Source: an uncultured Kiritimatiellota bacterium (GTDB lineage: Bacteria; Verrucomicrobiota; Kiritimatiellia; RFP12; DVOR01). From it: a stretch of DNA of 59,902 nucleotides. The position numbers and the translations under genes were made by a program. The notes below the pieces were generated by a model. The model saw only the letters and a program-made list of their open reading frames with translations. It was not told the DNA's origin and made no database searches. Position 1 is the stretch's first letter. Each line of letters starts with the position of its first letter. Where the stretch lies: contig CALXSH010000007.1 of assembly GCA_944391065.1 (NCBI GenBank), forward strand, positions 1 through 59,902, given 5' to 3'. Shown here piece by piece: positions 56,868-59,486 of this stretch.

Positions 56868-57796
56868 ACCTCCCCGCCGCGTGGGCCGACCCGATTGAGC
56901 GTTTCCTGGAGGCCATGGTTTACATGGCCGGCCTGACGCCTGCGACCTGCGAGGCTTACCGGCGCGATCTCTCGCGCCTCGCGGCCTTCGCGCGGACCCG
57001 CAATCTCCCGGACTGGACCGCCGTCGGCACGGCCGACCTGAAGGCCTGGGTCCTCAGCCTGCGCGCGGACGGCTACGCGGACGGCACCGTCCGCCGGCGT
57101 GTCGTCGCCGCGCGGCGTTTCTTCCTCTGGCTCCTCGACGAAAATGTCATCGGCCGTCTCCCGACCGACGGCCTCATCCTCGGCCGCGCCGTGCGCCGGC
57201 GTCTCCCCCGGACCATTCCCGAGCGCACCCTCTGCGCTCTCATCGAGGCCGTCGACGGCGACGGCCGGGACGACCGCCGCGATCGCGCCATGCTCGAGCT
57301 CCTCTACGGCAGCGGCCTGCGCGTGACGGAGCTCTGCACGCTTCGCCTGCAGGACGTCGATCTCGGGGCGATGCGGCTGCACGTCCGCGGCAAGGGCCGC
57401 AAGGAGCGCGTCGTCCCCTTCGGCCCGCCCGCCAAGGCGGCCGCGGAGCTTTGGCTGAAGGCCCGCGCCGCCCTCATTGCCGGGCTTCGCCGCGAGGGCG
57501 AACTCTCCGACCGCTCCGCCGCCCTCTTCATCACCGACCGCGGCCGGCCCTTCACGCGCAGCGCCGTCGCGGCCATGGTCCACGCCCGCATCCATGCCTT
57601 CCTGCCGGAGGGTTCCGAGGCCACGCCTCACACCCTGCGCCACTCCTTCGCCACCCATCTTCTCGACCACGGCGCCCCCCTTCTCGACATCCGCGACCTT
57701 CTCGGCCACGCCTCCGTCGAGACCACCGGCATCTATACCCACACCTCCGCCGCGGGACTTCGCGAAACATTCCGGAAGTGTTTTCCGCGCGGCTGA
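56864..57796 (+). CDS. XerC/XerD-family tyrosine recombinase
   Basis: Site-specific recombinase of 310 residues, the size of chromosomal dimer-resolving XerC/XerD. The N-terminal SAM-like DNA-binding domain (FLEAMVYMAGLTPATCEAYRRDL near residue 14, in parts) is followed by the catalytic domain with R in GSGLRVTEL (near 153), K in GKGRKERVVP (near 177), HTLRHSFATHLL (H and R near 258-261), LGHASVETTGIYTH with His and the nucleophile Tyr (near 281-294). XerD-like rather than phage integrase because it is compact and lies in a stable housekeeping context. Coupled to hemB. Confidence 0.92.
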   Translation: MNLPAAWADPIERFLEAMVYMAGLTPATCEAYRRDLSRLAAFARTRNLPDWTAVGTADLKAWVLSLRADGYADGTVRRRVVAARRFFLWLLDENVIGRLPTDGLILGRAVRRRLPRTIPERTLCALIEAVDGDGRDDRRDRAMLELLYGSGLRVTELCTLRLQDVDLGAMRLHVRGKGRKERVVPFGPPAKAAAELWLKARAALIAGLRREGELSDRSAALFITDRGRPFTRSAVAAMVHARIHAFLPEGSEATPHTLRHSFATHLLDHGAPLLDIRDLLGHASVETTGIYTHTSAAGLRETFRKCFPRG

Positions 57797-57829
57797 GGCT
57801 TCCGTCAGCGATAAAGCTTTCACCGTTTT

Positions 57830-57857
57830 TTGACATACGTTCTCAAAAGTGTATAAT
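57830..57857 (+). promoter_or_regulatory. consensus sigma-70 promoter for CBM48 gene
   Basis: TTGACA (57830-57835) and TATAAT (57852-57857) are both perfect and 16 bp apart, the strongest promoter in the window. Transcription should start near 57864, leaving a leader of about 75 nt with a hairpin (TTCCGCGG/CCGTGGAA, 57899-57917) before an AAGGAGG site. Confidence 0.92.
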
Positions 57858-57938
57858 AGGGCGCGTTTTTCACGGTGTGGCAGATGTCGGAACAGAGCTT
57901 CCGCGGTACCCGTGGAACGCATCAAGGAGGAAATGAAT

Positions 57939-58412
57939 ATGGCTACTACGAAGAAGACCGCCAAGACCGCCAAGCCGGCTGTCGAAGCCGTCAAGAAGGC
58001 TCCTGCCAAGAAGGCCGCCCCCGCCAAGAAGGCCCCTGCCAAGAAGGCCGCTCCCGCGCAGGACGATCTCTTCGCCGAGCCCGTCGCGCCCAAGGCCGAA
58101 CCCGAAGCCCCCAAGGCCAAGGCTCCCGCCAAGAAGCCCGCCGCCCCCAAGACCGTCCGTGTGACCTTCTCGGTCCGTGCCGAAGTCGGCAGCAAGGTCT
58201 TTGTCGCCGGCAGCTTCAACAACTGGGACCCCATCGCCAAGCCGATGACCGACAAGAAGGGCGACGGTGTCTACACCTGCGTCCTCGTGCTCCCCAAGGG
58301 CACCTACGAATACAAGTTCGTCATCAACGGCACCTGGTGCGCCGATCCCGAGTGCACCGACTGGGTGCAGAACGACATGGGCACGCTCAACAGCGTCAGG
58401 GTCGTCGACTGA
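57939..58412 (+). CDS. histone-H1-like tail fused to CBM48/AMPK-type glycogen-binding domain
   Basis: A 157-residue protein. Residues 1-70 are Lys/Ala/Pro repeats (KKAPAKKAAPAKKAPAKKA type), like histone H1 or bacterial AlgP/Hc1-style nucleoid proteins. Residues about 72-157 are one E-set/CBM48 domain as in AMPK beta subunits and branching enzymes: VFVAGSFNNWDP, GVYTCVLVLPKGTYEYKFVINGTW in two parts, then DPE; the glycogen-binding Trp, Lys and Trp positions (NNW, YKF, GTW) are kept. ATG 57939 has AAGGAGG 8 nt upstream; ATG 57933 is too close. It is monocistronic with a strong promoter and terminator, so probably abundant. Confidence 0.8.
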   Translation: MATTKKTAKTAKPAVEAVKKAPAKKAAPAKKAPAKKAAPAQDDLFAEPVAPKAEPEAPKAKAPAKKPAAPKTVRVTFSVRAEVGSKVFVAGSFNNWDPIAKPMTDKKGDGVYTCVLVLPKGTYEYKFVINGTWCADPECTDWVQNDMGTLNSVRVVD

Positions 58413-58438
58413 CCGCGGTCCCTGCGTCAATCGTCTGT

Positions 58439-58471
58439 GCGGATTCCGCTTGCGCGGAGTCCGCTTTTTTT
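58439..58471 (+). terminator. intrinsic terminator after CBM48 gene
   Basis: GCGGATTCCGC-TTGC-GCGGAGTCCGC forms an 11-bp stem (one G-U pair) followed by seven T, 26 nt after the stop codon. Confidence 0.95.
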
Positions 58472-58484
58472 GTGCCCGCGCGGC

Positions 58485-59486
58485 TCATCCTTCGCACTGG
58501 ACGAGGCCGAGCGCCGCGAAGTCCGCGCGGAGGGCCTCCATGCTGTCGGCCTGCGGGGCGACGGCACAGATTTTGCCGGGATAGATGCGGTAGTCGGCGC
58601 GGCAGGCGTCGGGGGTGAGGTTGGGCATGAAGACGTTGGCGCCGGAGGAGAGACCGCGGATGCGGCCCTCGGCGGGGTCGAGGGTCGAGAGGGCCGTGGT
58701 GGAGGGGATGTTGGCCCAGGGGCAGAGGAGGCGCGCGAGGGCATAGCAGCGGCAGGTGAAGCCGACGGAGACGGGGACCTCCGAGGGCGCGGGGTCGGCG
58801 CCGAGGGGCGTCTGCGGGTCGGCGAGGTAGGGGCCCAGGCCGATCATGTCGAGATGAAGCTCCCGGAAGAGCAGCAGGTCCCGGACGACGGAATCCAGCG
58901 TCTGGCCGGGGATGCCGAGCATGATGCCGCTGCCGATTTCGTAGCCTTGGGCGCGGAGGCGGCGGAGCATCCCGATGCGGGGGTGGGGGCCTTCGGCGGG
59001 GGCGCCGGGATGGATGGCGCGGAAGAGAGAAAGATCGGAGGTCTCAAAGCGCAGCAGATAGCGTTCGGCGCCGGCCTCGCGCCAGGCGGCCGTGTCGGCT
59101 TCGGCGCGTTCGCCGAGGGAGAGGGTGACGCGCTGGCCGGTTTCGGACCTGATGCGGCGGACGAGGGTGCTGACGCGTTGGCGGGTCCAGAGGGCCGCGT
59201 TTTCGCCGGCCTGGAGGACGACGGTGCCGAAGCCGAGGTCCCGCGCGAGGCGCGCGGAGGCGAGGACGTCGTCGTCGGAGAGGGCGTAGCGGCGGGGATG
59301 GGGATTGCTGCGGCGCATGCCGCAGTAGAGGCAGTCGCGGAGGCAGCGGTTGGAGAGTTCGATGAGGCCGCGGAGGAAGACACCGTTGCCCTTGGAGCGG
59401 AAGCGTTCGGCCCGGGCCTCGGCGAAGAGCGGTTCGGGGTCGGGTGCGGTGAGGGCGGCGCGGATGGCTTGGGGTGTGGGGTCCAT
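58485..59486 (-). CDS. hydE: [FeFe]-hydrogenase maturase HydE-like radical SAM protein
   Basis: Radical SAM enzyme, probably HydE, which acts with HydF and HydG to build the H-cluster 2Fe subcluster. The 333-residue protein has CLRDCLYC (C48, C52, C55) holding the [4Fe-4S] cluster, preceded by GLIELSNRC as in HydE (EISNYC), RYALSDDDVLASA, GFGTVVLQAGEN, GSGIMLGIPGQT and the C-terminal YRIYPGKICA. PylB or BioB-like methylornithine synthase is the alternative, judged less likely by the YPGKIC ending. ATG 59486 lies 7 nt from a TGG-TACACT -10. HydF, HydG and the hydrogenase are not in the window. Confidence 0.85.
   Translation of the reverse strand: MDPTPQAIRAALTAPDPEPLFAEARAERFRSKGNGVFLRGLIELSNRCLRDCLYCGMRRSNPHPRRYALSDDDVLASARLARDLGFGTVVLQAGENAALWTRQRVSTLVRRIRSETGQRVTLSLGERAEADTAAWREAGAERYLLRFETSDLSLFRAIHPGAPAEGPHPRIGMLRRLRAQGYEIGSGIMLGIPGQTLDSVVRDLLLFRELHLDMIGLGPYLADPQTPLGADPAPSEVPVSVGFTCRCYALARLLCPWANIPSTTALSTLDPAEGRIRGLSSGANVFMPNLTPDACRADYRIYPGKICAVAPQADSMEALRADFAALGLVQCEG

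Follow-up and report, generated by a model that had tools for sequence, protein, structure and literature searches.

A stand-alone AMPK-beta-type CBM48 protein with a Lys/Ala/Pro-rich tail in the Kiritimatiellia, a candidate for glycogen positioning

The gene and its flanking signals

The window (the whole stretch of 59,902 nucleotides that was analyzed, from an uncultured Kiritimatiellota bacterium) contains a gene (57939..58412, + strand), identified by ORF call and Pfam, for a tailed stand-alone CBM48 (AMPK1_CBM) protein of 157 amino acids with a pI of 9.6. A consensus sigma-70-type promoter, TTGACA-16-TATAAT (57830..57857, +), lies upstream and matches at 12/12 positions; shuffled sequence yields a mean of 0.1 sites as good as this one, and a promoter scoring 10–12/12 is found at the same place in all 14 members of the genus whose upstream region is intact, which bears out the perfect promoter reported in a preliminary description of this DNA. 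The Shine-Dalgarno sequence AAGGAGG (57924..57930, +) is located 8 nt 5' of the start codon, ATG 57939; an alternative start at ATG 57933 was rejected because it lies only 2 nt from AAGGAGG, which is too close. Rfam gave no match to positions 57600–58700, and hence no known riboswitch in the leader. Judging only from the promoter and ribosome site, the protein is probably abundant.

An xerC/D-like integrase gene precedes the CBM gene on the same strand and stops at 57796, short of the promoter, and on the downstream side lies a radical-SAM gene in convergent orientation, an arrangement that fits the earlier view of the gene as monocistronic. The strong terminator of that description fares less well: a hairpin of 11 pairs (8 of them G-C) followed by a T-run (58439..58464, +) does exist, and comparable GC hairpins with T-runs are found 3' of the gene in most genus members, but the single site is in itself no better than chance, one such match being expected in the region.

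The CBM48 domain and its glycogen context

The combination of a Lys/Ala/Pro tail with an AMPK-beta-type CBM48, first proposed on reading the sequence, is confirmed by Pfam and by an AlphaFold model. The CBM48 or AMPK-beta glycogen-binding domain comprises residues 72–157 (58152..58409, +). Within it, Pfam matches residues 83–153 to AMPK1_CBM (PF16561; 2.6e-15, 56.8 bits with a cut-off of 26.8) and also finds CBM_48 (PF02922; 5.7e-9, 36.6 bits with a cut-off of 22.4), and the closest sequences in the PDB are AMPK beta subunits. In the model, which was built from 42 homologues, block-mean pLDDT is 94–98 from residue 71 on. Structural comparison (VIA-align) of the model with AMPK beta1 (1z0m_B) gives Z 14.4 and rmsd 1.4 over 81 aligned amino acids at 33% identity, and comparison with a cyclodextrin complex (4yef_B) gives Z 13.8; plant SEX4 and then GlgB CBM48 are the next structural matches, at Z about 13 and 11. 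Residues 72–157, for which a fold comparison with AMPK beta and GlgB had been suggested, are thus predicted to form an AMPK-beta-like beta-sandwich. The window protein differs from AMPK beta in being stand-alone and bacterial, in its basic tail, and in having no AMPK alpha/gamma-interacting region.

The sugar-contact surface of AMPK beta is retained. Residues W96 (58224..58226, +), K126 (58314..58316, +) and W133 (58335..58337, +) are equivalent to W100, K126 and W133 of AMPK beta1; the first two are invariant among the 42 homologues and the third is present in 40 of them (95%). In the alignment, M147-G-T149-L-N151 (58377..58391, +) corresponds to the AMPK L146/T148/N150 loop, in which N150, too, is a sugar contact of AMPK beta1. 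N151 is invariant among the same homologues, of which 35 have T and 5 have S at position 149; position 147 is variable (M/L/H/F). Five of the six AMPK sugar-contact positions are identical in the window protein, the sixth being a conservative change from Leu to Met; the contact residues rank among the most conserved positions of the alignment, and the signature is present in 74 of 82 small homologues. The earlier claim that the glycogen contacts are conserved is in agreement with these counts. In AMPK beta itself, mutation of W100, K126, W133, L146 or T148 markedly lowers glycogen binding (PMC2642990).

The family is widespread. Among 59 relatives in the order, 53 have a homologue, mostly in single copy; of 289 genomes sampled across the phylum, 148 encode AMPK1_CBM, and small stand-alone AMPK1_CBM proteins (mostly 90–120 aa in the cases examined) occur in about half of the sampled Verrucomicrobiota. 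These small proteins, of about 90–110 aa, are direct homologues that share the domain, the signature and a basic N-terminus, and some are encoded in glg clusters; they have about 8–25 aa before the domain, whereas in the window protein a K/A/P tail of 71 aa precedes it, and the gene lies outside any glg cluster. At seven related loci the CBM gene lies directly upstream of glycogen genes (glgP, glgA or glgB) with a gap of 54–380 nt, being followed by glgP and glgA (L045, L055, L060), by glgA and glgB (L054, L057, L061; the first two near-identical to each other) or by glgB (L053); the glg neighbors were verified by Pfam at L045, L053, L055, L060 and L061. The glg-linked members do not group in one clade but are dispersed through the domain tree, which was built on only 84 columns and leaves many forks unresolved. 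At the window locus the CBM gene is not near glg genes; elsewhere in the window's genome glgA and glgB are adjacent, with glgP at a separate location. Cultured Pontiella, of the class Kiritimatiellae, has glgABCPX and storage granules taken by the authors for glycogen (PMC7356697). Co-occurrence with glgA was dropped as support for a link between the CBM protein and glycogen; with GlgA in almost every sampled genome of the phylum (280 of 289, the CBM gene being in 148), it carries no information on the point.

The fold, the conserved contacts, the glg synteny in relatives and the glg genes in the window's genome together argue that the window protein very probably binds glycogen. Of the link between glycogen and the nucleoid put forward in the preliminary description, the glycogen half is strengthened by this evidence; the nucleoid half is much less well supported, the tail being of a type not specific to DNA-binding proteins, as described below, and the alternatives named in that description, a flexible scaffold or another polyanion, are also plausible.

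Two further features of the family were observed. Relatives G023, G094 and G243 contain 18, 16 and 15 AMPK1_CBM copies per genome, respectively, a large expansion. In other families of the order a pdxA-like gene (judged by eye) follows the CBM gene (L017, L018, L020, L021, L022, L039, L040), with no evident link to it.

The Lys/Ala/Pro-rich tail

The tail (residues 1–71; 57939..58151, +) has a calculated charge of +11.5 and a pI of 10.2, and the domain (72–157) a calculated charge of about -1.6. It is composed of 25% K, 33% A and 16% P and is predicted by AlphaFold to be disordered (pLDDT 52–59, residues 1–60). Its likeness to histone H1 is compositional only, as the HC2 family (PF07382) falls below the Pfam cut-off (17.6 bits with a cut-off of 40, E 0.0042). 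The DNA encoding the tail contains short tandem repeats, the best of which has a 33-bp unit (57988–58057), as would be expected of a tail that changes length easily. A short acidic break in the tail is centered on QDDLF (residues 41–45; 58059..58073, +); in a comparison across the genus the motif x-x-[DE]-[LM]-[FP] occurs mid-tail in 13 of 14 members while the remaining tail drifts. Interpretation of QDDLF as a sliding-clamp motif (cf. QL[SD]LF) was dropped, as the Q is present in no relative of the genus.

A basic stretch N-terminal to the domain is present in every Kiritimatiellia homologue examined; it is 9–85 aa long and in most cases has a net charge of +4 to +17. The tails are always net basic, and it is this trait that is conserved, not the sequence. 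The first ten residues have a mean charge of +2.9 in 79 family members and +0.6 in 130 genes mostly from the same loci, a large shift for which the p value of about 6e-19 is inflated by relatedness. In many relatives the tail is only about 10 aa long, and in all glg-linked relatives only 10–15 aa precede the domain; the long K/A/P form is seen on the tree in the window's genus and in some other families.

The same type of tail is found on other proteins. The census of K/A/P tails relied on DNA patterns, among them a strict KKxxxKK pattern, and is incomplete, so that its counts are lower bounds; a reversed-pattern control for KKxxxKK gave zero matches in the window's genome, and the tail used as a protein query against that genome found only itself. 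There the KKxxxKK pattern identified few other tails: on AccA, on a DksA/TraR-type zinc-finger protein and on ribosomal protein L35, as well as two short or truncated frames. The N-terminal Lys/Ala/Pro tail of AccA (L095:1186-2163, - strand, contig 5) is genus-wide and takes the place of the helical region that AccA normally has at its N-terminus; the AccA of most other families in the order has no tail, G027 being an exception. N-terminal K/A/P tails of about 150 aa or more are carried by DksA/TraR zinc-finger proteins (L104:1339-2274, +, contig 37 of the window's genome; L184:1056-2054, -). In relatives within the order, N-terminal K/A tails occur on HU (L185:1221-1679, -; L186:1218-1562, -), an N-terminal tail on the GGGtGRT protein (L188:190-1236, -; L191), and C-terminal tails on an Fe-alcohol dehydrogenase (L192:232-1584, +) and a 2-hydroxyacid dehydrogenase (L172:349-1950, +); small, nearly pure K/A/P proteins are also present in the order (L181, L187, L195). 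Because AccA, Fe-alcohol dehydrogenase, GGGtGRT and 2-hydroxyacid dehydrogenase all have such tails, the tail does not imply DNA binding; its presence on nucleoid proteins and enzymes alike indicates that it is a lineage-wide polycation module and no specific sign of DNA binding.

Possible roles of the tailed protein

Nucleoid tethers are known already for PHA and polyphosphate granules: in PhaF and PhaM (PHA) and in AlgP (polyphosphate) the tail binds DNA and spreads the granules (PMC13052382, PMC9239181). PhaF of Pseudomonas and PhaM of Cupriavidus have the same plan as the window protein, a storage-polymer-binding domain with a Lys/Ala/Pro histone-H1-like tail (PMC13052382), and the disordered Lys/Ala/Pro tail of these proteins is found in the window protein as well. 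Its granule-binding domain is, however, unrelated (no phasin family was listed by Pfam at E up to 1), its tail is N-terminal and its charge is lower, so that the likeness is one of plan and predicted role only. AlgP of Pseudomonas aeruginosa likewise has a KPAA-rich disordered tail, needed for polyphosphate-granule spacing (PMC9239181); unlike that of the window protein it is C-terminal, 195 aa long and net +55, and is joined to a helical N-domain in a protein of polyphosphate granules. By analogy, the best reading is that the window protein may function as PhaF, PhaM and AlgP do, though homologous to none of them.

The mechanism proposed from these analogies, tentatively and with some doubt, is that of a glycogen-coating protein whose tail would hold or space glycogen by way of a polyanion, with the nucleoid as leading candidate. 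The protein would be small, cytoplasmic and glycogen-associated. Its CBM48 would bind glycogen or the outer chains of an alpha-glucan through the AMPK-beta sugar-contact surface, a step that is strongly indicated, and the disordered polycationic tail might project from the glycogen surface and touch a polyanion, most likely nucleoid DNA; glycogen might thereby stay close to the chromosome and be distributed along it, or be stopped from clumping. The nucleoid-tether step taken separately is held with similar or slightly less confidence. Against it count the tail charge of +11.5, which is far under that of PhaF (+35) or AlgP, the acidic stretch that interrupts the tail, and the short stretches of 10–15 aa in relatives that include all the glg-linked ones; the position of the window gene away from glg genes counts against the proposed mechanism as a whole.

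The strongest competing reading is that of a glycogen coat in which the tail acts as an electrostatic or steric brush, or as a solubility spacer, preventing clumping and tuning the access of GlgA, GlgB and GlgP with no nucleoid contact. This reading, which is possible though on balance doubtful, comports with a tail that varies from 9 to 85 aa while its basic charge is kept, with the short tails of the glg-linked members, with the occurrence of this tail type on AccA, Fe-alcohol dehydrogenase and other soluble enzymes, and with the glycogen enzymes encoded next to the gene in relatives. Such strong basicity is not required of a pure spacer, however, and in its long K/A/P form the tail is much like those of bona fide DNA-binding proteins of the same order, such as the HU at L185. 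Disordered tails rich in lysine have little intrinsic specificity, a consideration that bears on a further reading, in which the partner of the tail is RNA, the ribosome or polyphosphate and not DNA, placing glycogen on another polyanion or linking glycogen and polyphosphate stores. The similar tail of AlgP on polyphosphate granules (PMC9239181) is a precedent for this, yet the neighborhoods examined contained no polyphosphate or RNA link, and the reading is considered improbable.

The nearest fold being the AMPK beta sensor domain, and the gene adjoining glgP, glgA or glgB in relatives, the protein might alternatively be a regulatory adaptor whose CBM senses glycogen or its branching, as in AMPK beta, and adjusts a glycogen enzyme or the transcription apparatus; it consists only of tail and CBM, with no fused partner domain or kinase, and such a role is judged slightly less probable still. 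Use of the E-set fold for protein contact in place of sugar binding has precedents in E-set/CBM48 relatives with non-sugar roles (the domain has, for example, a weak match to the type IX secretion plug protein), but is very improbable in view of the highly conserved sugar-contact residues and the glg synteny.

What is new here is the pairing of an AMPK-beta-type domain with a polycationic tail in one stand-alone bacterial protein. Literature on stand-alone CBM48 or isoamylase early set proteins in connection with glycogen was searched and nothing relevant was found. A review from 2025 on how bacteria position their organelles covers PhaM, PhaF, PhaH and AlgP, and the word glycogen is absent from it (PMC13052382). 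In E. coli, glycogen collects at the poles of the cell; in cells mutated in csrA it shuts out the chromosome and brings division to a halt (PMC4836754); glycogen positioning is therefore a real question, for which the family offers a concrete candidate in a phylum with cultured members that store what is thought to be glycogen in granules. The proposed coating protein would, if it were indeed a tether, be the glycogen counterpart of PhaF and AlgP and of high interest. A more far-reaching version, that this one protein tethers glycogen to the nucleoid so that it is shared between daughters and not left at the old pole, and that the order's histone-H1-like tails more widely attach stores and metabolic enzymes to the chromosome, is thought unlikely, if well short of negligible.

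A comparable arrangement was observed in Fibrobacteraceae (L079:3842-4216, +; L080:3836-4210, +), where, as in the window protein, a K/A tail, here of 54 aa and with several Cys, precedes a CBM48-like domain. That domain is distant and lacks part of the C-terminal sugar-contact loop, and the tailed protein of the Fibrobacteraceae is possibly of independent origin.
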